The notes under the pieces were generated by a model. The model saw only the letters and a program-made list of their open reading frames with translations, searched no databases and was not told where the DNA came from. A DNA stretch of 55,592 nt, taken from the NCBI GenBank assembly GCA_014381555.1, contig JACNLO010000062.1:1-55592 (forward strand), given 5' to 3'. The position numbers were made by a program, and so were the translations under genes. Below are positions 25,558 through 55,592 of this stretch, piece after piece; position 1 is the first letter of the stretch; each line of letters opens with the position of its first letter. Source of the DNA: Planctomycetota bacterium (GTDB taxonomy: Bacteria; Planctomycetota; Phycisphaerae; Phycisphaerales; SM1A02).

Positions 25558-25772
25558 GTACCGATAATTCGCCAAAACCTGATAAGATGACTTTCGAAGA
25601 GGCATCAGAAGAACTCGACGCAATTGTGAAACGCATTGAAGAAGGTGATGCTGATTTAGAAAAAATGATGGAAGAACATAAACGCGGGAAGTTACTCGTA
25701 AATCGTTGTAAAGAACTTCTTGACAAAGCTCAGCAACAAATACAAACGATGGAATCGAAAGATTTGACGTAA
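25554..25772 (+). CDS. xseB: Exodeoxyribonuclease VII small subunit
   Basis: A 72-residue partner of XseA. The family motif is present: F-E-E-A-S-E-E-L-D-A-I-V-K-R-I-E-E-G-D-A-D-L-E, then a helix with C-K-E-L-L-D-K-A. The ATG at 25554 overlaps the xseA stop and is preferred over the upstream GTG. The gap to the following prepilin peptidase gene is 27 bases. Confidence 0.95.
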   Translation: MSTDNSPKPDKMTFEEASEELDAIVKRIEEGDADLEKMMEEHKRGKLLVNRCKELLDKAQQQIQTMESKDLT

Positions 25773-25799
25773 TTCCTGCTGGGAAAGGACTCCCTACTT

Positions 25800-27206
25800 T
25801 TGCTTCTAGCAACGCACGCTACATTTGATCAACTACTTTTAAAAGCCACATTGATGGAGCATCTTCCAGCATCGATTTTTGTGTTTGTCCTCGGTGCATG
25901 TGTAGGGAGTTTTTTAAACGTGGTGCACTATCGTTTGCCTAGAAACATGCGACTTCTTGTTCCTCAGAGTAGTTGTCCATCTTGCAATCATCGCCTTCGT
26001 TTCTTTAGAGAAAATATCCCAATACTTGGGTGGTTTGCAGTTCGCGGGAAGTGTAGATACTGCAAAGAGCCGGTTTCATTCGAATATCCGTTTGTTGAAC
26101 TGCTTACTGCATTCTTGTTTTTGGTTTGCTATGTGCTGTGTTATTGGGTTCCAGAATCCACTCCATTTTTAGGTGAAATATTTGGGTCATGGTGGCATGA
26201 CAATGGAGTCGTTCGTACATTGCCAATGTTTATCGCACTGCTCACTTTGGTTAGCGGTTTGTTCGCGATGACAGTTATTGATGCTAGAACATTTACAATT
26301 CCAATCCAAATCCCAATCTTTATGACACTCGTCGCTTTTCTAGCAGCACTGTGTCAACCGTGGTTACAAGTTCGGCACACCCCAGATCAAATCTGGCCAT
26401 ATCCATTAATAGATTGGACTTGGTCGCTTGCAGCATTTTGTGGAATGGGTGGTGTGCTGTTTTCTACTTTCTTATTGAAGATAGGAGTTCTGAAATACAG
26501 CTTTTCCGATTACGAAGAGTACGTTAAGGAAGACGAACTATTGGCTGTCTATCCACATGCTCGGCGTGAAATGTTCAAGGAGATAATATTCCTTCTTCCA
26601 ATCATGTTGGGGTTCATTATCGGGTGGGTTCTTGGGTATGAAAAGGGGGTGCCTTCGCTTGCTATTCAAGGGATTGCTGGAAGCATTCTTGGATACCTCG
26701 TAGGAGGAGGACTTGTCTGGGGAATTCGTATTTTGGGCACCTTGGGCTTTGGGAAAGAAGCTATGGGACTTGGTGATGTCCACTTGCTCGCTGGTGTTGG
26801 TGCAGTCGTTGGGTGGTGGGATCCGGTTCTCATCTTCTTCATCGCACCTTTCAGCGGGTTGCTTTGGGCTGGAGTTTCAGCAATTCTTGAAAAGATAGGC
26901 AAGCAATATCGAGAGATACCCTATGGTCCACATCTTGCAATTGCGACATTACTTGTGGTTTTATGCCGCCCAGGCATTGATTGGGTGTGGTCAATCGTGA
27001 TGCCAGACGTCCAAATGCTGACAACCTCTACCTCTGAGGTCACCTCTGTGGTCACCTCTGTGGTCACCTCAGAGGTGACCACAGAGGTGCCACATGAGAT
27101 GGCCGTAAAGTTTTGGAGTTTTTTTGTAAGCGTGGTCGATTTGACGGATGGGCAAAAAGAAGGTTCAATACACATATCACCACTACCCGTTGGATACGGA
27201 CAGTGA
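25800..27206 (+). CDS. Prepilin peptidase (A24 family) with odd repeat-encoded C-tail
   Basis: Membrane aspartyl protease that trims and methylates type IV pilin-like leaders. It has the methyltransferase-type N-terminal part with G-S-F-L-N-V-V-H-Y-R-L-P and two CxxC pairs (C-P-S-C, C-R-Y-C), then membrane helices, catalytic V-I-D-A-R and G-L-G-D-V-H. At 468 residues it is longer than usual (about 250-300). It has a large insert between the two catalytic motifs (about 185-310, including a soluble D-Y-E-E-Y segment). The C-terminal tail is unrelated to the family: five tandem 4-residue units of T-S-x-V type encoded by 12-bp DNA repeats, then K-F-W-S-F-F. The ORF start used is TTG 25800; ATG 25854 (M-E-H-L-P) is an alternative. 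Confidence 0.85.
   Translation: MLLATHATFDQLLLKATLMEHLPASIFVFVLGACVGSFLNVVHYRLPRNMRLLVPQSSCPSCNHRLRFFRENIPILGWFAVRGKCRYCKEPVSFEYPFVELLTAFLFLVCYVLCYWVPESTPFLGEIFGSWWHDNGVVRTLPMFIALLTLVSGLFAMTVIDARTFTIPIQIPIFMTLVAFLAALCQPWLQVRHTPDQIWPYPLIDWTWSLAAFCGMGGVLFSTFLLKIGVLKYSFSDYEEYVKEDELLAVYPHARREMFKEIIFLLPIMLGFIIGWVLGYEKGVPSLAIQGIAGSILGYLVGGGLVWGIRILGTLGFGKEAMGLGDVHLLAGVGAVVGWWDPVLIFFIAPFSGLLWAGVSAILEKIGKQYREIPYGPHLAIATLLVVLCRPGIDWVWSIVMPDVQMLTTSTSEVTSVVTSVVTSEVTTEVPHEMAVKFWSFFVSVVDLTDGQKEGSIHISPLPVGYGQ
27030..27089 (+). repeat. 12-bp tandem repeat ending in a 37-base perfect palindrome
   Basis: Five adjoining 12-base units (ACCTCTGAGGTC, ACCTCTGTGGTC twice, ACCTCAGAGGTG, ACCACAGAGGTG). The last three form a perfect inverted repeat with 18-base arms (27053-27070 and 27072-27089) around one base. 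The array is in frame, adding T-S-x-V units to the prepilin peptidase tail. Confidence 0.9.
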
Positions 27207-44956: not shown

Positions 44957-46513
44957 TTACGGACATCCGCCCCAATTCCCAACAACCATGAGTAAGTCGT
45001 TAACATCGACAATGCCATCAGCGTAAATATCTGCAGGGGAGTCGGTTGAACCCCATTGGTCGATAACAGCGAGTAAGTCATTTACATCAACAACAGCATC
45101 TCCAGTTATATCAGCAGGGCAACAATCCTCTGCGATAACATTGTCTCCGTTGTCATTGTAAACTCCAGAAATTTGATTCGGCGTGTTACTGCAGAATAGA
45201 TTTCTAGCAAGTACAGGCTCATCCCATTGAGGTATACCATCGGAGGGTTGATGGTGGAGTCCGCCACCATCATCGGTTGCAGAGTTGTATTGTATTTCGC
45301 AATCAGTAATGGTCGCTAATAAACTTCCATATATTGAAATGCCACCACCTAATACTGCTGTGTTGTTGGTGAACCGAGAATACTCCAAGTTCGTGTTATG
45401 GAATCCGCTGCAAAGTATTCCGCCACCTCTAGACTGGCTTTCATTAATATCAATTTCGCAATGAATAAGTGAAAGCGTTGGGCTATAGAACTCGCTACTT
45501 GAAGCATAATAAATTCCTCCGCCTCCACCACTGCCACTTGTACTTTGCGCAGTGTTTTCGATAATAAAGCATTCATAAAACATTGGTTCATTCGCTCCCG
45601 TGAAATGTGCGCCGCCGCCGCTGCCACCTGCGGTGTTCGAATTAACGGTGCAAGAATAAAAACTTGGGTACATTACAGATCCTTGCCCGTGTTGATCGCA
45701 TAAAACTCCACCACCATCGGTGGTGGCGGTATTGTCTGTGATTGCTCCGCCTGTGATATTGAAGTCGCTGTCTACACCACAATAAATGCCACCACCGGTA
45801 TATCCAGAGTTGTTCATGATTCTAGTGCTAATGAATTCAGGATGACAATTGTTAATAATGTATACACCTCCTCCAGGTTTAGAGTTTAGAGTTGTATTAA
45901 AACTGATGGTGCAAGTATTGAAGGTTGGGTTTGAGTAATCACCGATAGAGACTCCACCTCCACCGCCATCAAACGAAGCGCCAGCGTAGTTGTTCGTAAT
46001 CAAGCAGTTTGAAATCAGTGGGCTACTGTAATCGGTGCAAAGAATTCCACCACCACCGAAGAACAACCCATTGGAAGTATTATCCGAGATGGTGCAGTTC
46101 TCTATTGTGGGGCTACTTGTTGAGCAGAAGATACCTCCTCCTCCAAATTTGCTACTTGATTCCGTGTTTCCTCTTGTGAGTGTAAAACCATCAAGAACTG
46201 TCAAAACTGTTTCACCACTTGTGAAGACGACACATCGTCGAATATTTTCACCATCAATGAAAGTCGCATTTGCGCCATGGCTGCTGCGAAGCGTAATGGT
46301 TTTTCCAAGAAAATCGACTACTTGCTGCGCAGTACTCGTGTATGTTCCAGGTCTGACAATTATTTCATCACCATTTGTAGCGGCATCAACAGCCGTTTGA
46401 ATATTGGTGAAGTCCGCTTTGCCGTCATCGTCAACAATCCAAGTATTCGCCATTGCAGTTGACGCGATACTCATGTACGCAATCAATAACCATTTTTGTG
46501 TTTTCATCTTCAA
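44957..46513 (-). CDS. Secreted right-handed beta-helix protein with GC-type dockerin
   Basis: 518 residues: a signal peptide (cleavage near A-M-A-N), the start motif W-I-V-D-D-D-G-K-A-D-F-x-N-I-Q-x-A-V-D-A-A, a right-handed parallel beta-helix (about 60-430) with repeating G-G-G-G-I and N-C-T-I-S-x-N rungs, and a C-terminal dockerin (about 460-518; D-I-T-G-D-A-V-V-D-V-N-D-L-L, then a D-I-Y-A-D-G-I-V-D-V-N-D-L-L loop) ending W-G-G-C-P. Such helices are seen in polysaccharide-active and adhesive proteins; no catalytic site could be assigned. The Shine-Dalgarno is AAGGAG, six bases from ATG. Confidence 0.88.
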   Translation of the reverse strand: MKMKTQKWLLIAYMSIASTAMANTWIVDDDGKADFTNIQTAVDAATNGDEIIVRPGTYTSTAQQVVDFLGKTITLRSSHGANATFIDGENIRRCVVFTSGETVLTVLDGFTLTRGNTESSSKFGGGGIFCSTSSPTIENCTISDNTSNGLFFGGGGILCTDYSSPLISNCLITNNYAGASFDGGGGGVSIGDYSNPTFNTCTISFNTTLNSKPGGGVYIINNCHPEFISTRIMNNSGYTGGGIYCGVDSDFNITGGAITDNTATTDGGGVLCDQHGQGSVMYPSFYSCTVNSNTAGGSGGGAHFTGANEPMFYECFIIENTAQSTSGSGGGGGIYYASSSEFYSPTLSLIHCEIDINESQSRGGGILCSGFHNTNLEYSRFTNNTAVLGGGISIYGSLLATITDCEIQYNSATDDGGGLHHQPSDGIPQWDEPVLARNLFCSNTPNQISGVYNDNGDNVIAEDCCPADITGDAVVDVNDLLAVIDQWGSTDSPADIYADGIVDVNDLLMVVGNWGGCP

Positions 46514-46543
46514 CTCCTTTCAGATAGTGAACCACTGACAGTT

Positions 46544-46573
46544 AATATAAGGGCAAATTTACGAATTCTTCAA
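46544..46573 (-). promoter_or_regulatory. Promoter of the beta-helix gene
   Basis: On the minus strand TTGAAG (46568-46573) and TATATT (46544-46549) are spaced by 18 bases, 30 bases upstream of the ATG at 46513. Confidence 0.5.
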
Positions 46574-46606
46574 AAAAAGAAAAATAATTTCCCAAATTCA
46601 TAGTAT

Positions 46607-46636
46607 TTGTCATTGGAGTGGCGATTGGAGTAAAAT
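46607..46636 (+). promoter_or_regulatory. Candidate promoter of typA
   Basis: TTGTCA (46607-46612) and TAAAAT (46631-46636) are spaced by 18 bases, 33 bases before the ATG of typA. Confidence 0.45.
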
Positions 46637-46669
46637 ACTGGGTTACCCCACTTATTTAGGATTTGATTT

Positions 46670-48517
46670 ATGCTCCATACTGCTGACCCAAACTTAAGAA
46701 ATGTCGCGATAGTTGCGCACGTTGATCACGGAAAGACGACCTTGGTCGATTCCATGCTTGCGTTTTGCGGAGCTATGGAGTTAAATCGTTCAGAGGCGGA
46801 GTGCATCCTTGACTCTGACCCGCTAGAGAAAGAAAGAGGGATTACGATCACGTCAAAGAATTGTGCCGTCACATACCGACCGCATAGTGGTGAGCATTCG
46901 GACAAGACCTGTCGAATAAATATTATTGATACTCCTGGTCACGCTGACTTTGGTGGTGAAGTAGAACGTGTTTTGAAAATGGCTGATGGGGTCCTTTTGC
47001 TTGTTGATGCCTTTGAGGGACCAATGCCACAAACACGATTTGTTCTTGGTAAAGCACTTGAACTCGACCATCCAATTATTGTTGTGGTTAACAAATGCGA
47101 TCGACCAAACGCACGAGTGGAAGAAGTAGTCAACGAGGTTTTTGATTTGCTCGTAGCTCTTGGAGCGAGTGATGAGCGATTGGATTTTCACATAATTTAT
47201 GCTTCTGGTCGTGATGGCTGGTCGACTGAAGAAGAATGTGTATTTGAAGGCGACATGCAACCGCTCCTTGATGCAATTATGTCCCACTTGCCTGCGCCAG
47301 TTGGATATGCAGATGTACCGTTGCAAATGCTTATTGCAAGCGCAGATTATTCTCCATATGCGGGAAGAATTGCAATTGGCAGGGTGATGGCTGGAGCGCT
47401 TTCCGCTGGCCAAGCAGTTACAATTTGCCATGAACATGAACACAGGCAAGCCCGCGCTCAGAAAGTGTATAGGTTTAAGGATCTCGGCAGAACACCCGCT
47501 GAACTTGTTTCAGTTGGTGATTTGTGTGCAGTCGAGGGTATTGGTGATTTCGAAATTGGCGATACGATTGCTTGCCCCGAACAACCAAATCCAATTGCAC
47601 GAATAGCAGTGGACGAACCAACCTTGCACATGTTGTTCCGCGTGAACGATTCACCCAATGCAGGTACTTCTGGTAAGTTTGTGACATCGAGACAAATCTC
47701 GGATAGGTTGCAACGCGAACTACGAAGTAATTTGGCACTAAGAGTTGAAGCAGGGGATTCCTCTGAAGAATTTAAGGTTTCGGGACGCGGCTTGTTGCAC
47801 TTGGGTATTCTTCTTGAAAATATGCGCCGCGAGGGATATGAATTAACAGTCGGTCGCCCTCAAGTTATAGAAAAAGAAATTGATGGTGTAAAGTGTGAAC
47901 CTATTGAGTTGCTCACGATTGATGTTGATGAACATTACGTTGGCGCTGCAATGGAATTGCTTGGAATTCGAGGCGGGGAAGTGCAATCGCTTGAACAGCG
48001 CGGGGACAGAATGCACATTGAGTGTGAAATACCCGCTCGTGGTTTGATTGGGTTGCGAAGCCACATGTTGACGGCAACTGCTGGTGAAGCGGTGATGTAC
48101 CATTGTTTTCAAAAGTATGCACCAACTCGTACAACCATGTATCGAAGGGCAAACGGTGTTTTGATTGCAACTGCTACAGGAAGTGCAACAACATACGCAA
48201 TGCTTAATATTTCCCAGAGAGGTGTGTTATTCGTGGAACCACAAGAAGTTATTTACGGAGGGCAAATTGTTGGCGAAAACTCTCGTGACAATGACCTGGA
48301 AGTGAATATTGTAAAAGGCAAAGCGTTCTCAAATGTTCGGGAATCTAACAAAGAGGCGACAACCGTTCTTAAGTCGTCTCGAGAAATTACCCTGGAATCT
48401 GCCCTTGAATATATTCAAGACGACGAACTTGTCGAAATTACACCTGACGCTATCCGGTTACGTAAACGAGAACTGAGTGAAACCAAGCGCAAACAAATTG
48501 CACGTAAAAACAAGTGA
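46670..48517 (+). CDS. typA: Ribosome-associated GTPase TypA/BipA
   Basis: Translational GTPase that assists ribosome assembly and stress adaptation. The 615 residues have the G1 motif A-H-V-D-H-G-K-T-T (17-25), switch regions with E-K-E-R-G-I-T-I, D-T-P-G-H-A-D-F-G-G-E-V-E-R, N-K-C-D-R-P, then domains II, III, V and the BipA-specific C-terminal part (G-L-I-G-L-R-S-H-M-L-T-A-T-A-G). The length is normal. It stands between secreted-protein genes and is on its own promoter. Confidence 0.97.
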   Translation: MLHTADPNLRNVAIVAHVDHGKTTLVDSMLAFCGAMELNRSEAECILDSDPLEKERGITITSKNCAVTYRPHSGEHSDKTCRINIIDTPGHADFGGEVERVLKMADGVLLLVDAFEGPMPQTRFVLGKALELDHPIIVVVNKCDRPNARVEEVVNEVFDLLVALGASDERLDFHIIYASGRDGWSTEEECVFEGDMQPLLDAIMSHLPAPVGYADVPLQMLIASADYSPYAGRIAIGRVMAGALSAGQAVTICHEHEHRQARAQKVYRFKDLGRTPAELVSVGDLCAVEGIGDFEIGDTIACPEQPNPIARIAVDEPTLHMLFRVNDSPNAGTSGKFVTSRQISDRLQRELRSNLALRVEAGDSSEEFKVSGRGLLHLGILLENMRREGYELTVGRPQVIEKEIDGVKCEPIELLTIDVDEHYVGAAMELLGIRGGEVQSLEQRGDRMHIECEIPARGLIGLRSHMLTATAGEAVMYHCFQKYAPTRTTMYRRANGVLIATATGSATTYAMLNISQRGVLFVEPQEVIYGGQIVGENSRDNDLEVNIVKGKAFSNVRESNKEATTVLKSSREITLESALEYIQDDELVEITPDAIRLRKRELSETKRKQIARKNK

Positions 48518-48578
48518 CGTAGTTGCCGGAGGACATAAGTCGAGAAAATTTGATCTTCGTGACGAAAGAAAGGTGTAG

Positions 48579-49523
48579 ATGCAAAAAAGATTTAGAAGAA
48601 GAACAAGTTTGATCTTGCTTGCAATATTGCTTGGAGTTACGGCATGTGCAAATATAGGATTACTCGCTGAAATCATTCCACAGTTTGATTTGTTCATACA
48701 CTTTCAGGTTCAGTACTTAGTAGCTTTATTGGTTCTTGGGGTCATCTTTATGTTCCTGAGAAACTGGCTCTTCTTGGTACTTTCTTTGATTTGCATGATA
48801 TTTCCGATTATTCGAATTGCTCCTTGGTATTTTGGCGAAAGTGAAAAAGGTCATCCAACACTTACTATTCTTACATCTAACATTAAAGGGACAAATACTA
48901 ACACCCAAGCGATTCAAGAAATGGTTGAACTGGAAGATGCAGACATCGTTGTATTGCTAGAGTCGACTTATTTTCACCAAGAAGAATTGGTTGCACTTGA
49001 AGAAACCTATCAATTTACCTATTCAAATTCTCTGGGAGGGGGTTCGGGTTTTTTGTTATACAGTAAGTTTCCACTTTCCAATATTGAAGCACCATCGAAC
49101 GGAATACCCCATGTTGTGAGCGTTGCTTCTACAGTAGAAACACCGGACGGGGCATTTGATTTAGTTGCAGTACATCTAACTCGACCAGGCCTCCGACATG
49201 GTGGGGTATTTCGTGATTCCCAACTCTTACAATTAACTAAGTTGCTTAAAAACAGAAGAGAGAATTTGGTAGTTATTGGTGATTTTAATACGTCGATGTG
49301 GACCCAAGGATATGAATTATTCGAACAGGAAAACCATTTACGTAATATGCGAAGAGGCAGGGGGATTGTGCCCACTTGGGGGATGAATGCGTTGGGGCCG
49401 CTCTTTTCTATTCCAATTGATCACTGTTTCATAAGTGGAGAATTGCTTGGAGCGGTATTTGAGACCATAACTCTTGCTGGCTCGGATCACTTAGCAATTG
49501 TCGTGGGCATCGTTTTGGAGTAA
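48579..49523 (+). CDS. Endonuclease/exonuclease/phosphatase family membrane protein
   Basis: 314 residues: three N-terminal transmembrane helices (about 10-32, 43-60, 62-80) and a periplasmic EEP-fold domain. The motifs are T-S-N-I-K-G-T-N, D-I-V-V-L-L-E, V-V-I-G-D-F-N-T and G-S-D-H-L-A-I-V, covering the metal-binding and catalytic residues of the DNase I-like superfamily. This arrangement matches the widespread membrane-bound EEP proteins of unknown substrate. It follows typA by 61 bases. Confidence 0.88.
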   Translation: MQKRFRRRTSLILLAILLGVTACANIGLLAEIIPQFDLFIHFQVQYLVALLVLGVIFMFLRNWLFLVLSLICMIFPIIRIAPWYFGESEKGHPTLTILTSNIKGTNTNTQAIQEMVELEDADIVVLLESTYFHQEELVALEETYQFTYSNSLGGGSGFLLYSKFPLSNIEAPSNGIPHVVSVASTVETPDGAFDLVAVHLTRPGLRHGGVFRDSQLLQLTKLLKNRRENLVVIGDFNTSMWTQGYELFEQENHLRNMRRGRGIVPTWGMNALGPLFSIPIDHCFISGELLGAVFETITLAGSDHLAIVVGIVLE

Positions 49524-49536
49524 CTGCAAGTTTTGG

Positions 49537-50667
49537 TTACTCGCACGATCCCCAGTTATCGATAATAAGAAGAAGGTCGACGATATCGACGACACCATCT
49601 GTGTTGATATCGCCAAGGCTCGTGGTGCTTCCCCAATTACCAATCAATATTAGCAGGTCATTTAGCCCAGCCGTGCCATCTTCATTAATGTCTGCGGAGC
49701 ATTCTTCGCAGGTATCTTCAATTGTATTGTTGCCGTTATCAGTCCACTCACCGTATATTTGCTCTGCACTGTTGTTACAAATAGTAGTTGAAGATATCAA
49801 TGGGTTGCTTTGGTTCCAGTTATACATAGCTCCACCACTACTTGCAAGATTATCATTGAATTGACAATAATTAATCGAACAACTGCTGTCACTATTCAAA
49901 ATACCGCCGCCACCAACAGAGGCATAATTTTCGCTGAAAGTACAGTTACTAATGCTTGGGGTTGAAGATTCGTTTCTTATTGCACCGCCGCCACTTTGGA
50001 GATTGTTTGTGCTAGCAGAATTGCCATCAAATTCACAATCTGAAATGGTTACATCACTAGCATTCAGGTTGTGTATTGCTCCGCCAAAGCCACCTTCGTT
50101 TTCAATAAATCGGCAACTTTGTATTGTTGCATTGCTTTCGTAATTATAAATTCCGCCACCTCCACTTTGGGAAGAGATAGCTTGTGCAAGGTTGTTAGAA
50201 ATCATACAGTTCTGGATAGTTGGACTAGAGCCAAAGTTGTAAATACCGCCGCCGCAGTTCGATTCGTTGGAGCCAACCTCTTTATCGCCATTGTAGTCGT
50301 AGTCTGATGCAAACCCGCCGGTAATCGTAAAGCCATCAATAACAGTATCACTTGTTTCACCATTGAAACATGCGATGGCTCGTCTTTGACCTTCGCCGTT
50401 GATAATTGTTGCAGCAACTATGCTAGGGTTTTCTGGATTACTGCTACGAAGAGTGATAGCTTTGCCTAGCATGTTTACAACGTGACCATCTTGTGTAGAT
50501 GTATAAGTCCCAGGTGAAACAATAACTATGTCTCCATCATATGCAGCTGTTATTGCATCTTGAATATTATCGAAGTTTGCCTTGCCGTCATCATCGACTA
50601 CCCATGTGCCAGCGAGTGCAATGCTACTGAACATGCCCATTACCAAACCAGTTATTAAACTTTTCAT
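49537..50667 (-). CDS. Secreted right-handed beta-helix protein with GC-type dockerin
   Basis: 376 residues from the ATG at 50667 (an upstream in-frame start at 50691 is less likely, since it would precede the signal peptide M-K-S-L-I-T-G-L). It has the same plan as the protein at 44957: W-V-V-D-D-D-G-K-A-N-F-D-N-I-Q-D-A, I-V-S-P-G-T-Y-T-S, beta-helix rungs (about 55-310) and a dockerin ending W-G-S-C-E. The two are clearly paralogous over the N-terminal about 75 residues and the dockerin. Confidence 0.88.
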   Translation of the reverse strand: MKSLITGLVMGMFSSIALAGTWVVDDDGKANFDNIQDAITAAYDGDIVIVSPGTYTSTQDGHVVNMLGKAITLRSSNPENPSIVAATIINGEGQRRAIACFNGETSDTVIDGFTITGGFASDYDYNGDKEVGSNESNCGGGIYNFGSSPTIQNCMISNNLAQAISSQSGGGGIYNYESNATIQSCRFIENEGGFGGAIHNLNASDVTISDCEFDGNSASTNNLQSGGGAIRNESSTPSISNCTFSENYASVGGGGILNSDSSCSINYCQFNDNLASSGGAMYNWNQSNPLISSTTICNNSAEQIYGEWTDNGNNTIEDTCEECSADINEDGTAGLNDLLILIGNWGSTTSLGDINTDGVVDIVDLLLIIDNWGSCE

Positions 50668-50830
50668 TTCTCCAAACCTTTCCCGGGTCATAGCTATACC
50701 AGACCCGTACTTATATTGCTTATATTACAGATAATACTATGAAGTTCGGATGGTTGAATCAATGAAAAACAAGAAAATGAAGAAAAACACAATAAAAGGA
50801 GTTTTTGGTGCGGTTTATTCGAATTTCGGC

Positions 50831-50858
50831 AAAAAACTACCCTCGGGTCGCTTGTTTC
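50831..50858 (-). terminator. Terminator-like palindrome, copy 5 (after the small lipoprotein gene)
   Basis: On the minus strand, AAACAAGCGACCCGAGGG is followed by TAGTTTTTT, directly after the stop of the gene at 50868. It has a short GC stem and a T run, as for an intrinsic terminator, and matches the palindrome family. Confidence 0.6.
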
Positions 50859-50867
50859 TTCGCCTTA

Positions 50868-51542
50868 TTAAGGGAAAACCATTTGTGGGGCTTCAGAATC
50901 AACGGCTCGATGCGCTGCATTTAGGGCAGTAAGTGGAACTAGGACAGCCAGCATGGATGCTTTTTTTGCGGCATCTCCGAGATTAAATATTTTTTTTGCT
51001 TCAAACTTGCCGCGCACATGCCATTGGTTGTCAATGGAGTGTGCATCGAGCACAATGTTGAAGTGATTACTTCCAGTGAATTGTGAGATTGAAATCAATC
51101 CTGAAAGTTGTCGTATTCCTGAAAGGTTTGAAACAATGTCTTCGCGTGTTTCACTCGAGCAATTGAGTACACTTTCTCTGGTATGTCGTAACCCCAAACT
51201 TGATGGTGAACTAAATCCAGAATGTTTGCCCCATCTTTCAATTGCTTCCTCTTTAGAAATAGTTTCAGTGTAATTGCCAAGCAGTAACCACGCTTCTGGT
51301 TTTTGTTGATCTACTTTTACAAGAACGTCCCATGCACCGATTTTGTCATTCTTGCTACTTGCGAGCAAAAGTGTATCAGCTTCGTTGTCATAGATTCTTG
51401 TTTGAATTCGTGTAGGTTTACCTTCACTGCTCCACGAATGTTCATGTGCAGTGATGGTTCCGGTAAATTGTTTAAGTTGTGTGCAGCCAGTGATTGACGT
51501 CATCGTGATAAGAACCAAACTTGTAAAGTTTAATATTCGCAT
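50868..51542 (-). CDS. Small hypothetical lipoprotein
   Basis: 224 residues from the ATG at 51542. A lipoprotein signal (lipobox ...S-I-T-G-C, Cys20) and a beta-rich C-terminal part (about 45-185), ending with a short hydrophobic helix (A-S-M-L-A-V-L-V-P-L-T-A). No family is recognised; the region before the helix looks like a small envelope protein. It is divergent from the phosphatase gene at 51694, with 151 bases between. Confidence 0.65.
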   Translation of the reverse strand: MRILNFTSLVLITMTSITGCTQLKQFTGTITAHEHSWSSEGKPTRIQTRIYDNEADTLLLASSKNDKIGAWDVLVKVDQQKPEAWLLLGNYTETISKEEAIERWGKHSGFSSPSSLGLRHTRESVLNCSSETREDIVSNLSGIRQLSGLISISQFTGSNHFNIVLDAHSIDNQWHVRGKFEAKKIFNLGDAAKKASMLAVLVPLTALNAAHRAVDSEAPQMVFP

Positions 51543-51693
51543 TGGATGAACACATCTTATATGAATATAAAAACTCATGGCTCATTGTCTCGGGAAGGAT
51601 TTACAATACCTCACCACTTTGCAAAGAGGGGCGTGCAGAATCTTTCTAGGGCAGCCAATGTACATAAATGATTCAGAATACAATGGATTATTC

Positions 51694-52644
51694 ATGATTC
51701 GTAGCTGCATAATTTTATGGTTCGTATATTCCTTGATTAGTTGTGGTGTTTCAAAGCATCAAGCGCCATATAAATTTCAACACGACGCATCACTTTCTAC
51801 TTCTACAACTGAACCGAGTAACTACCAAGGGCTGAAACAAGTCGTAGCATTTCAGGAAAATCTCTTTTCCGGAAGCAGACCTGAAAGCGAATTAGGAATA
51901 CGTGAATTGAAAAGTCTAAATGTTGCTACGATTATTTGTGTCGATGGAATTTCCTCAGAAGTTGAAGCAGCAAGACGGCATGGGATCGAAACGATTCACA
52001 TTCCTCTTAAATACAATGCGCCAAATGAATCACAGATTCTCGATCTTTGTTCCGCATTCATTATGAATAGATCACTTGGGAATGTATACATTCATTGTCA
52101 TCATGGAAAACATCGATCTGCTACTGCTGCTGCACTAGTCTCGATTGCCCTTGGTTTATCGAATGTACAAGAAATGAAGGATAGGATGCATGTTTCCGGA
52201 ACATCTCAGCACTACACTGGGTTATGGGAAGCAGTTGAAAAGCAACAGCTAATCAGTATTCCCGAAGTAGATAAAAATAAAAAGAAGTTTCCTTCAATGG
52301 TGAAACCAATTGGAATGACCGCTCAAATGATCGAAATTGATAATGCTCTTGACAGGATATTACTGGTGAAACAATCACAATGGACTGTTCCTGATTCACA
52401 CCCTGATCTTGCTCCAGCAGCAGACGCAGGTTTAATTGCTGAAATTTTTAGATCGATGAAATTTGAAACAGAACCGGCATTTACGAACAAGAAATTTTTA
52501 AGCCACACCATTAATGCGTTACATAAAGCATCTAGATTAGAGCAGAATTTAAATAGGGGAACTGTTGATATAGGATTGTTAGATCAATGCTTTAGACAAC
52601 TAGAACAATCATGCATCCAATGCCACACAAAGTGGAGAAAGTAA
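51694..52644 (+). CDS. Dual-specificity-type phosphatase lipoprotein with C-terminal CxxCH haem motif
   Basis: 316 residues. A lipoprotein signal (lipobox ...L-I-S-C, Cys17), then a cysteine phosphatase domain (about 45-185) with the P-loop H-C-H-H-G-K-H-R-S (Cys135, Arg141: C-x5-R) and I-C-V-D-G as a likely general-acid loop. The C-terminal 110 residues (about 205-316) are helical and end C-I-Q-C-H-T-K-W-R, a c-type haem attachment site placed at the very end as in cytochrome c' (four-helix type). The ATG 51694 is used; a longer ORF from 51577 lacks a signal. Export and haem binding are inferred. The substrate is unknown. Confidence 0.72.
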   Translation: MIRSCIILWFVYSLISCGVSKHQAPYKFQHDASLSTSTTEPSNYQGLKQVVAFQENLFSGSRPESELGIRELKSLNVATIICVDGISSEVEAARRHGIETIHIPLKYNAPNESQILDLCSAFIMNRSLGNVYIHCHHGKHRSATAAALVSIALGLSNVQEMKDRMHVSGTSQHYTGLWEAVEKQQLISIPEVDKNKKKFPSMVKPIGMTAQMIEIDNALDRILLVKQSQWTVPDSHPDLAPAADAGLIAEIFRSMKFETEPAFTNKKFLSHTINALHKASRLEQNLNRGTVDIGLLDQCFRQLEQSCIQCHTKWRK

Positions 52645-53114
52645 ATACGTATTGGTTCGGATATCGCTACGCTCTGAACAGAAAAAAGTACTGCATCTAT
52701 TTCTGGGATGACTTTAAGTTATCAATCATTATTACCGCAGTTGGTACGGGTGTTGTTTTGTAAATCTATTGGAAAATTTACAAGAGTTTGTTGTGAAATC
52801 TAGTGACACTACTTAGGTCAATGCCTAAGAAAACATTCCAGTGAGCAGGGTGGCACGGAATGCTCGCCACTCTTTGATCAAAGTGTAAAGAAGAAAGAGA
52901 GAAAAAATGAGCTATTCGCCATCATCGCAGGCGAACAACATTACAGCGATTACGGAGGTGGTGTGGGATTGTTAGCTGTGGTGTTGGTGGGGGGGGCTTG
53001 AGAGGGGGCGGTGTAAAACTCTACAGGTTTAAAGCGTATGCCGATAGAGCAAGCCACGTTTACACGTGTCCGTAATTGAAACCTTTTACCACCGTGACGA
53101 AATGACGAAAGTCA
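52645..53114. other. 470-base intergenic stretch with hairpins and one micro-ORF
   Basis: This lies between the phosphatase-haem gene and the convergent FG-GAP/beta-helix gene. I see short inverted repeats: TTAGG/CCTAA near 52815, CATTCC/GGAATG near 52835-52862, GTGGC/GCCAC near 52850-52870 and TTTGATCAAA near 52873. A run of eight G follows the micro-ORF near 52990. At the right edge AATGAC-GAAA-GTCATT (53101-53116) is a perfect hairpin overlapping the stop of the next gene. No gene of normal size was found. Confidence 0.5.
52907..52975 (+). CDS. Possible 22-residue micro-ORF
   Basis: ATG 52907 to TAG 52973-52975, after a purine-rich A-A-G-A-A-A-G-A-G-A-G stretch that could bind ribosomes. 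The product begins M-S-Y-S-P-S-S-Q-A and ends V-V-W-D-C. It could be a small peptide, a remnant, or chance. Low support. Confidence 0.2.
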   Translation: MSYSPSSQANNITAITEVVWDC

Positions 53115-53116
53115 TT
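53101..53116 (-). terminator. Hairpin at the end of the FG-GAP/beta-helix gene
   Basis: Perfect 6-bp stem AATGAC/GTCATT with a GAAA tetraloop (TTTC on the minus strand), overlapping the TAA stop at 53115-53117. No T run follows, so termination is uncertain. Confidence 0.35.
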
Positions 53117-55157
53117 ACTCACACGGCCCCCAGTTTGCAATGAGCAACATAAAATCTGTTACATCAACAATTCCATCCAGATTGATGTCTTCAATTCCCT
53201 CAGTATTTCCCCAAGCACCTATCAAAATCAACAGATCATTCACATCAATAGTTGCGTCAGCGTTCAAGTCGGGACAGTTGTTGTCACCCCCATAACACAC
53301 CATCCCTATTGAATTACCTCCGCCATCGACATAGTTCCCGAATATTTGATCTGGGCTATTTTGACAAAAGAGTGATTCCACAATTGTGATACTGCTACTT
53401 TCTGTATACAACCCTCCACCAATCGTTGCAACATTATCTTTCGTTTGACAGCCTACAAGGATCGGGTTTCCATTGTTCACGAATCCAATCCCTCCACCCT
53501 GGATTGCTGTGTTGTAGGCGATTAAGCACTGATAGAACTCGGGACTTCCTGTATCAATTAGCACGCCACCGCCCGTGCCAATACTGGATGAATTATTGAT
53601 GATTTGACAATCTTTAATTATCGGTGAACTGTTTGAACATAAAATTCCACTCCCACCCTCTAGAGTCGAACAATTTGTAATCGTAAACCCCTCAATGATT
53701 GTGGTGTTTGCTTCGTTGTTCTCACACACAATTCCCCTGCAGGGCTGGTTCAATCCATCAATATATGTCGCTTCAGAACCAATAATACTGTGTAACCAAA
53801 TTGCTTTACCCTTTAAGTTGACAAGAACATCGTTTGAACTTGTGTAGACTCCTGGCATGACCACAATCTCATCGCCATCGCTTGCAGCGTCAATCGCTTC
53901 TTGAATTGATACAAAATCTGCAAGCCCATCGTCATCGACCGACCAAATAGTTTGACAATCCCCATTCCATTTAGAGTCTCTCAATGGCACAATATCGTTC
54001 ATTGAAACTATGATTGATCCCCAATCCTTTGTTGGGTATGAATTCACAACGATCGAATCGAGATCGTTGTCTTGATCAAGATCAGCAAACGAAATAAACT
54101 TTGGTTCTGCGACTGTGTTGTGTTCTGAATTGTAATCAAGTGTAAATTGACCGGTGCCATCGTTCACGTACACATGAAATGAGCCAAGCCCTTTGTCGAT
54201 TACTGTAAGGTCTGTATAACCATCACCATTGATATCTGACGGCTCAACCAACTCCGATTGATATGGACAATCAACTAGTTCATGCACAAAATTCCATTCT
54301 CCGAGGTTTCTAATCAGACTAAATTGTGGATGGTTTCGATTCGCAAGCGATAGATCGAAGTCGCCATCAAGTTCCAAATCAAGAGCACGAACAGAACATG
54401 CGCTAGATTCAGTATCTATACTCGCTCGCTTTTGAACGCCTGCCCATTCACCTTTTTCAGATAATCCTAGATTTTCGTAGATATGTAAGTAACCCAACTG
54501 CGATACGACGGCAATGTCAGGGTCATCGTCTTGGTCCAGATTCACACCTACGATGGAAATACACCTTGCGTTTAAACCAAGATTAAATTCAATCCCGGTT
54601 CCAAATGTGCCATCACCTTCATTAAAAAATACATGCCAGCCTGTTTCAAATCCAATCTCCCCGTAATTCGCTACAAGTAAATCTTTGTATCCATCTGCAT
54701 TGAGATCGACAGTGTGAATCCAATGTGGATCGGAACCAGCCGTGTAAGTCACCGACTCGGAATATCCAAGCCAATCGCCATCTTGAGATGTGCCAAGATT
54801 CAAGAAAACTGTTGCACCGAATCCACTTGCAGAAGCAAGGTCGATGAACCCATCATTGTTTAAATCTTCAAATTCAATAATACGGTTATGGTGTTCGCCA
54901 CTACTCCTGATCACCATTGGAGTAGACAGCGACCCCTGACCACAATTTACTAGCAGGAGAATTTCATCACTAAATCGATCGCTGACCGCTACATCGGGAA
55001 TTCCATCCCCATTAATGTCGCCGGTAGCAACACACCTTGAGAAAGTGTTGTTTGCACCATTTGTATTAAAGAAATATTCATTACTTTGTGTGAATGAAAC
55101 CGTGTCAGCAAGTGATGTACTTGTTAGGAACATCGAGATGAGCAGGGGGCGGAACAT
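53115..55157 (-). CDS. Secreted FG-GAP/VCBS + beta-helix protein with GC-type dockerin
   Basis: 680 residues from the ATG at 55157; a signal peptide (M-F-R-P-L-L-I-S-M-F-L-T-S-T-S-L-A-D) directly follows. Residues about 30-400 hold repeated FG-GAP/VCBS-like units with D-x-N-x-D-G-x-x-D loops (D-I-N-G-D-G-I-P-D, D-L-N-N-D-G-F-I-D, D-L-N-A-D-G-Y-K-D), probably a beta-propeller. From about 410 the N-terminal beta-helix module of the paralogues appears (V-D-D-D-G-L-A-D-F-V-S-I-Q-E-A), then a short beta-helix, then the dockerin ending W-G-P-C-E. The ATG overlaps the upstream stop (TAATG). Confidence 0.82.
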   Translation of the reverse strand: MFRPLLISMFLTSTSLADTVSFTQSNEYFFNTNGANNTFSRCVATGDINGDGIPDVAVSDRFSDEILLLVNCGQGSLSTPMVIRSSGEHHNRIIEFEDLNNDGFIDLASASGFGATVFLNLGTSQDGDWLGYSESVTYTAGSDPHWIHTVDLNADGYKDLLVANYGEIGFETGWHVFFNEGDGTFGTGIEFNLGLNARCISIVGVNLDQDDDPDIAVVSQLGYLHIYENLGLSEKGEWAGVQKRASIDTESSACSVRALDLELDGDFDLSLANRNHPQFSLIRNLGEWNFVHELVDCPYQSELVEPSDINGDGYTDLTVIDKGLGSFHVYVNDGTGQFTLDYNSEHNTVAEPKFISFADLDQDNDLDSIVVNSYPTKDWGSIIVSMNDIVPLRDSKWNGDCQTIWSVDDDGLADFVSIQEAIDAASDGDEIVVMPGVYTSSNDVLVNLKGKAIWLHSIIGSEATYIDGLNQPCRGIVCENNEANTTIIEGFTITNCSTLEGGSGILCSNSSPIIKDCQIINNSSSIGTGGGVLIDTGSPEFYQCLIAYNTAIQGGGIGFVNNGNPILVGCQTKDNVATIGGGLYTESSSITIVESLFCQNSPDQIFGNYVDGGGNSIGMVCYGGDNNCPDLNADATIDVNDLLILIGAWGNTEGIEDINLDGIVDVTDFMLLIANWGPCE

Positions 55158-55591
55158 TACTCGCACGGCCCCCAGTTGCCGACAACGATGAGTAGGTCGG
55201 TGACATCGACGATGCCGTCTTGGTTCAAGTCGCCCTGCGGTATGTTGTTGCCCCAATAGCCAACAACAATTAACAGGTCAACAACATTGACTAGTTCGTC
55301 ACCATCTGCATCGCCAACACACTCACAGTCGTCAAGTTCACCGTTATTGTTTTGGTCGTTGGCGGGGTCTTTCAGTTCACATGTGTCAGGAATACCGTTT
55401 TCGTTGCAGTCCTCAACTGTTCCATCTGCGATGGAGCAGGAATCGATGAGGCCATCAAGGTCACAATCAAGGGATGGGTCTTCTTCAATATCACAGATAT
55501 CAAGTATGCCATTTGAGTTGCAGTCGTATTCTCTTCCATCAAAGCGGTAGACATACGCGCTACCAGAAGAGGAGCCGTTGTCATCGTCATA
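55157..55591 (-). CDS. FG-GAP-type secreted protein with GC-type dockerin, 5' truncated by window end
   Basis: The frame is open from the right edge to a TAA at 55157-55159. The first visible residues, D-D-D-N-G-S-S-S-G-S-A-Y-V-Y-R, are a typical FG-GAP repeat of bacterial integrin-like propellers. Then come Asp/Asn/Cys-rich loops (D-C-N-S-N-G-I-L-D-I-C, D-C-N-E-N-G-I-P-D-T-C) of thrombospondin-type-3 look and a GC-type dockerin with D-A-D-G-D-E-L-V-N-V-V-D-L-L and D-L-N-Q-D-G-I-V-D-V-T-D-L-L, ending W-G-P-C-E. The stop overlaps the next ATG (TAATG), so the two secreted proteins are probably co-expressed. The N-terminus is outside the window. Confidence 0.8.
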   Translation of the reverse strand, partial: YDDDNGSSSGSAYVYRFDGREYDCNSNGILDICDIEEDPSLDCDLDGLIDSCSIADGTVEDCNENGIPDTCELKDPANDQNNNGELDDCECVGDADGDELVNVVDLLIVVGYWGNNIPQGDLNQDGIVDVTDLLIVVGNWGPCE

Positions 55592-55592
55592 G

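Follow-up and report, generated by a model that had tools for sequence, protein, structure and literature searches.

A predicted exported lipoprotein of Planctomycetota joins a cysteine phosphatase domain to a class II cytochrome c domain

The window analysed here is the whole 55,592-nucleotide stretch of contig JACNLO010000062.1 from a Planctomycetota bacterium (GCA_014381555.1). Near its end, a gene on the plus strand (51694..52644) encodes a protein of 316 amino acids, opening with an ATG start codon at 51694 and closing with a TAA stop codon at 52642-52644. Two homologues (L002 and L022) carry V-I-R at the site of M-I-R in the window protein. The product is a predicted lipoprotein in which a phosphatase domain is followed by a class II cytochrome c domain, and this architecture is near certain. 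The AlphaFold (AF2) model of the full-length protein has a mean predicted local distance difference test score (pLDDT) of 91.5 and a predicted template modelling score (pTM) of 0.84. The original prediction had read the product as an exported lipoprotein that combines a cysteine phosphatase with a C-terminus resembling cytochrome c', and profiles, models and conservation all agree with that description.

Conservation is reported for an alignment (A2) of the window protein with 77 relatives, 78 proteins in total, the relatives being drawn from 80 retained loci. It omits L067 and L069, which are incomplete at a contig end, and L057, whose N-terminal stretch looks near-identical to that of L056. 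A smaller set (A1) comprises 19 proteins.

Residues 1-17 (51694..51744, plus strand) form a predicted lipoprotein signal peptide, with a hydrophobic segment and a lipobox, LISC, that ends at Cys17. Lipidation of Cys17 is predicted from this motif. A crude hydrophobicity and lipobox rule applied to the 80 relatives classed 45 as lipoprotein-like, 28 as hydrophobic without the lipobox of the rule, and seven as neither.

The dual-specificity phosphatase (DSP) domain, a fold of the protein tyrosine phosphatase (PTP) type, spans residues 45-195 (51826..52278, plus strand). The Pfam profile PTP-SAK matches the window protein at residues 56-161 (E 1.7e-7, 31.9 bits vs a cut-off of 27). TpbA is the top Foldseek match of the full-length model (9.7e-6) and, as entry 2m3v, the best solved match of the profile search (6.2e-10). 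VIA comparison of the same model gave Z 17.2 for DUSP23 and 16.3 for TpbA (155 residues, 3.0 Å), which are effectively tied, followed by Siw14 (15.4) and AtPFA-DSP1 (15.2). The P-loop, HCHHGKHR, lies at residues 134-141 (52093..52116, plus strand), with Cys135 as the presumed nucleophile. The HCx5R pattern is kept in all 78 proteins of A2, as are H134, C135, H136, G138 and R141 individually, and the remaining positions are nearly as constant (H140 in 77, H137 in 76, K139 in 67). The residue after the catalytic Arg is Gly in 14 of the 78 and Cys in L073. An HCx5R loop on a DSP fold places the protein in the cysteine-based PTP/DSP superfamily, and phosphatase activity would be expected from fold and motif. 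One divergent member, L141 (genome G054), has TCETGRDR in place of HCHHGKHR and retains both the CxxCH motif and the Met described below; its chemistry has perhaps changed.

The general-acid position of the WPD-like loop is occupied in the window protein by Asn108 (52015..52017, plus strand), which the profile alignment places at Asp105 of TpbA, and is thus neither Asp nor Glu. Across A2 this column holds Asp in 40 proteins, Asn in 22 (the window protein included), Ser in seven, His in three, Gly in three, Ala in two and Glu in one, so that an acidic residue is found in 41 and neither Asp nor Glu in 37. Since some true members of the superfamily act without a general acid (PMC9038691), this lack limits the claim of activity and not the claim of membership. 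In TpbA, the D105A substitution lowers catalytic efficiency by 53%, as quoted in PMC4409338, so that Asn108 need not abolish activity.

Two known groups of phosphatases help to place the enzyme. TpbA (PA3885) of Pseudomonas aeruginosa is, like the window protein, an exported DSP-fold phosphatase, with the loop HCKHGNNR. The original prediction had regarded Cys-x5-Arg phosphatase loops as usually cytosolic, and thus an exported one as unusual. This part of it does not hold, since TpbA, the closest solved relative, is reported to be periplasmic (PMC4409338). The two proteins differ in that TpbA has a likely general acid, Asp105 (PMC4409338), and neither a cytochrome nor any other domain after its phosphatase domain; in the window protein, Asn108 takes the place of the Asp and a haem domain follows. 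Like the window protein, the PFA-DSP/Siw14 inositol-pyrophosphate phosphatases have Lys, His and Arg at the same places of the loop (Cys150...Lys154-His155-Arg156 in AtPFA-DSP1) and no Asp or Glu general acid (PMC9038691). The loop of AtPFA-DSP1 includes Cys150, Lys151, Arg152, Lys154, His155 and Arg156, and this enzyme is an efficient phosphatase proposed to act on inositol pyrophosphates without a general-acid residue (PMC9038691). By analogy, the shared K-H-R residues suggest a polyanionic substrate for the window protein. HCHHGKHR together with Asn108 follows the PFA-DSP/Siw14 pattern of a CxxGKHR loop without a general acid, and the profile of that family (PF03162) scores the window protein below its cut-off (24 vs 27 bits). 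The loop of these enzymes includes a Gly before the Lys, and the enzymes themselves are cytosolic. They further differ from the window protein in being eukaryotic and without haem.

The class II cytochrome c domain occupies residues 207-316 (52312..52641, plus strand) and ends with CIQCHTKWRK. Predicted alone (AF2), it folds into four helices with a pLDDT of 94.9. The original prediction had proposed that a structure model of this region would resemble cytochrome c', and the fold is indeed cytochrome c'-like. Pfam Cytochrom_C_2 (PF01322) found no match in the window protein itself; at E <= 5 it does match 17 of the 19 proteins in A1, the best of them at 4.1e-7. A family profile of the domain matches solved cytochromes c', with a best value of 6.6e-6. 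In the VIA comparison, chain A of NaxLS from the anammox planctomycete Kuenenia stuttgartiensis ranks first (Z 14.0, 103 residues, 2.3 Å), above the cytochromes c' (Z 13.1-11.5) and cytochrome b562 (Z 11.5). A four-helix bundle with CxxCH near its C-terminus is what defines class II cytochromes c (c', c556), and the domain has both. It shares the bundle with these proteins and with b562, and the C-terminal CxxCH with the c-type ones, and it differs from all of them in being joined to a phosphatase where they stand alone. NaxLS (Kusta0087/Kusta0088; 6r6m, 6r6n, 6r6o), itself a planctomycete class II cytochrome and the closest fold, is likewise a stand-alone complex without a phosphatase.

The CxxCH motif reads CIQCH and lies at residues 307-311 (52612..52626, plus strand). 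Covalent attachment of haem c is predicted there from the motif, with His311 as proximal ligand. The original prediction correctly put the motif near the end of the protein; its figure of eight residues from the C-terminus was approximate, and five residues follow His311. The CxxC pair is present in all 78 proteins of A2 and the His in 77 (the remaining protein has an X there, caused by an ambiguous base), so that CxxCH is retained in every readable aligned relative and the loss in close relatives that might have overturned the proposal was not seen. From the protein's own composition, a CxxCH would occur by chance within the last 15 residues with a probability of about 3e-4; a chance motif is ruled out by the conservation in A2.

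On the distal side, Met212 (52327..52329, plus strand) is the predicted axial ligand, judged from its presence in all 78 proteins of A2 and from the structural register. The VIA range on b562 (256b) runs from residue 11 of the domain model, placed on chain residue 1, to model residue 120, placed on chain residue 106. Provided that helices A and D contain no gaps, Met212 (model residue 17) falls on b562 residue 7 and His311 (model residue 116) on residue 102. Met7 and His102 are the two axial haem ligands of b562. The register thus agrees with Met/His ligation of the c556/b562 type at both ligands, in models that contain no haem. The VIA range on NaxLS (10 on 25) puts Met212 on residue 32 of chain A; the entry titles name C32M and C32G mutants and do not state which subunit chain A is. 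On the cytochromes c' 4cx9, 1bbh and 3vrc, Met212 falls on residue 16, the distal residue in Alcaligenes cytochrome c' (PMC5390784). An equivalent of Met212 was also seen by eye in more divergent relatives, some of which lose the HPD motif. Because Met212 is invariant and appears to lie on the axial Met of b562, a six-coordinate Met/His haem of the electron-transfer type is favoured on sequence and modelling grounds. The same invariant Met argues against a cytochrome c' sensu stricto, in which the haem is five-coordinate and high-spin and the distal residue does not coordinate.

In the window's genome, a single contig holds both ResB and CcsA, the cytochrome maturation genes whose presence the original prediction had proposed to check; COX1 is present in this genome as well. 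COX1, the haem-copper oxidase gene, occurs in 84 of 84 fusion genomes that are at least 85% complete, vs 236 of 286 sampled overall, in samples that are not identical and with phylogeny not controlled. This association is consistent with a redox setting and is not proof of one. In four of the 19 A1 proteins, a glutathione peroxidase is fused N-terminally in one reading frame (Pfam GSHPx, E 9e-38 to 8e-41). These three-domain proteins, glutathione peroxidase followed by phosphatase and class II cytochrome c, are L011 (847-2334), L014 (1498-3030, minus strand), L016 (790-2325) and L018 (628-2334). They come from four of the six family-f4 genomes, and no glutathione peroxidase match was found in the records of the other two (L025 and L027).

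The fusion is widespread in the phylum. It was found in 96 of 288 sampled Planctomycetota genomes, the window's included, as 97 matches at E <= 2.9e-46, so that the survey of Planctomycetes that the original prediction had called for shows it to be common. Ninety-four of the 97 matches extend to position 275 or beyond of 278, and three counted matches (G245, G196 and G264) end short of the cytochrome end. Weaker matches in this sample cover mainly the phosphatase part, mostly in shorter frames, and were left out of the fusion count. With the cytochrome domain alone as query, matches at E <= 0.001 come from 125 of 294 genomes, weak ones in short frames included; in each of the 30 best loci, one of which is the window, a phosphatase with HCx5R lies upstream. 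The scan of named genomes gave 174 confirmed relatives, of which 80 were kept among the matches listed, and 74 of these have planctomycete titles (the others are L028, L047, L050, L057, L084 and L093). In the phylum of the Pedosphaera-titled record, two of 194 genomes match, its own genome at full length and the other over the phosphatase region only. Closer to the window, the protein has matches in 31 of 61 genomes, the window's included, and in nine of the 13 of its own genus. Where one half seems to be missing, L067 and L069 run off the locus at a contig end, and the matches of L134 and L137 sit at their contig ends. A local fusion or assembly artefact is ruled out by the occurrence of the fusion across relatives and the phylum sample.

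Some loci depart from the fused form. L145 (G015:C37, ~25733-26107, minus strand), the one such match inspected for a missing cytochrome, is a predicted lipoprotein phosphatase that resembles TpbA and stands alone, with no cytochrome attached; its genome also has the fusion gene (L020, cut by the contig end), and L145 is a possible model of the pre-fusion ancestor. In G061 (contig C171) and G187 (contig C283), a phosphatase match adjoins a weak cytochrome match, and the G061 phosphatase match holds an in-frame stop. These may be split or decaying copies, and they were left out of the fusion count.

We favour, with moderate confidence, a membrane-anchored, exported phosphatase whose activity is coupled to redox state. 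The signal and lipobox would carry the protein across the membrane, where Cys17 would be lipidated, and the ResB/CcsA system, whose genes are present, would attach haem c to the CxxCH of the four-helix domain. The haem is probably low-spin and ligated by His311 and Met212, a predicted arrangement that would suit electron exchange and not an open gas pocket. Cys135 and Arg141 would form a phosphocysteine intermediate, as fold and motif suggest. Through the haem domain, the phosphatase may then respond to peroxide or to how reduced the pool of periplasmic c-type cytochromes is, either because contacts between the domains change or because the haem domain determines whether Cys135 is oxidised. 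The K-H-R loop and Asn108 hint that the enzyme may act on polyanionic phosphate or pyrophosphate groups and not on phosphotyrosine alone. Redox control of the phosphatase by haem, which the original prediction had suggested, is plausible.

Several observations weigh against this reading. There is no direct evidence of communication between the two domains, and a neighbourhood test by all-against-all comparison of open reading frames (ORFs) in 81 loci (the 80 relatives and window positions 45001-55592) found no widely shared gene partner. The fusion has no match in four of the 13 genomes of the window's genus and in 30 of the 61 relatives, and this patchy occurrence indicates that the gene is dispensable. 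The association with COX1 could be a result of shared ancestry. Asn108 may make the enzyme a slow or specialised phosphatase. The sequence match to b562 by hidden Markov model begins some three residues away from where the structural register would place it, and in a few cytochromes c' a Met at the distal position is uncoordinated (PMC5390784). Foldseek gave nothing at E <= 0.001 for the C-terminal domain, the best match being a chemotaxis receptor domain at 0.097, so that VIA, profiles and motif are the basis on which the fold was assigned. The VIA scores of Z 11-14 lie close to values that the tool flags because helical bundles of any kind can reach them, and among its 50 rows are also receptors, transporters and an arrestin, with Z 11.6-12.1. 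Some of these rows are titled as fusions with BRIL, the b562-derived module. The match to a cytochrome fold is nonetheless credible, since class II cytochromes or b562 variants make up most of the 50 rows, the profile finds the same kinds of protein by sequence, and the motif is in register.

Other explanations were weighed against the same evidence. The original prediction had suggested that the protein could sense NO or oxygen, and binding of NO, O2 or CO at the haem, in an open cytochrome c' pocket or with displacement of Met212, might gate the phosphatase. The fold does match the cytochromes c', and NaxLS, the best fold match, reportedly binds NO despite its six-coordination; in known sensors, DosP for example, gas can take the place of a ligand Met. 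Cytochromes c' bind NO and CO (PMC5390784; PMC4163637), and the Met at their distal position, though rare, is uncoordinated where it occurs (PMC5390784), which leaves room for such sensing. The register on b562 residues 7 and 102 and the invariance of Met212 weaken it, and we consider a gas sensor unlikely. It is also improbable, in our judgement, that the cytochrome serves only to keep an exported phosphatase alive in an oxidising compartment by handling the oxidation and re-reduction of Cys135 (with the glutathione peroxidase where fused), without signalling. The exported catalytic thiol, the glutathione peroxidase fusions and the terminal oxidase in 84 of 84 fusion genomes would fit such a role. 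One-electron haem chemistry suits thiol reduction poorly, however, and both the reportedly periplasmic TpbA (PMC4409338) and the predicted lipoprotein L145 lack a cytochrome, so rescue is not generally required.

The domain might also be no phosphatase at all. The rhodanese-phosphatase superfamily includes thiotransfer and redox enzymes, and the cysteine of the PTP fold could work on thiols or sulfur, or in some other redox reaction, with electrons passed to the haem or taken from it. This would agree with the 37 of 78 proteins without Asp or Glu at the general-acid column and with the Gly after the catalytic Arg in 14. We think it quite unlikely, given the complete HCx5R in all 78, the Asp at that column in 40, and the efficiency of AtPFA-DSP1 without a general acid (PMC9038691). 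Finally, a periplasmic phosphatase and an electron-carrier cytochrome could share one anchor and be functionally uncoupled, as the patchy occurrence and the lack of neighbourhood or direct evidence of coupling would allow; the 30 best cytochrome-domain matches are all fused, and a tandem this loose is very unlikely.

A wider proposal can be put forward tentatively, as a possibility that we consider doubtful as it stands. The fusions may represent a distinct kind of exported phosphatase that is gated by haem and, as far as searched, is nearly restricted to Planctomycetota. In these proteins, a class II cytochrome with Met/His ligation would report how reduced the periplasmic respiratory pool is (and also peroxide, where a glutathione peroxidase is fused), and the cysteine phosphatase receiving this signal would be adapted to polyanionic or pyrophosphate substrates. 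With haem covalently bound on the same chain as a cysteine phosphatase, phosphate removal would be linked directly to the extracytoplasmic respiratory or oxidative state. The fusion occurs in about one third of the sampled Planctomycetota genomes, which makes the family sizeable, and definite predictions follow for single residues (C135, M212, H311 and N108). A search of the open-access literature, which did not cover key papers, found no account of this fusion or coupling, and we do not claim its absence from print.

In the neighbourhood comparison, the largest cluster, apart from ORFs overlapping the gene itself, covered 13 of the 81 loci and included ABC-transporter ORFs; the next held seven, six and five. 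In one sub-group (L060, L064, L080, L095 and L100), an ABC transporter and a multihaem cytochrome lie downstream of the fusion gene. A Pfam check of L064 and L100 (~5.4-11.7 kb) identified an SBP_bac_6-type binding protein, an ATPase and a Cytochrome_C554-like multihaem cytochrome. The order of these genes after the fusion gene suggests an operon in that sub-group. The EEP-family neighbour in the window and a 236-amino-acid lipoprotein had no match in the fetched loci, whose flanks span only 1.5-6 kb. For the other neighbours, the matches were limited to dockerin-like tails, repeats and a single weak one to a TypA-like GTPase. Elsewhere in the window, four segments (1-640, 44957-46513, 49537-50691 and 53115-55592) encode predicted secreted proteins with a common dockerin-like C-terminal tail that ends in (N/A)WG-x-C. 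Two of these proteins were scanned and match Chlam_PMP or FG-GAP repeats, with Dockerin_1 matches below cut-off; the tail is possibly a common sorting or anchoring signal. Contigs C19 and C22 of genome G000 (2.0 Mb) carry dense CxxCH-encoding patterns, 12 of them within ~1.5 kb on one strand of C22, and these clusters are probably multihaem cytochromes.
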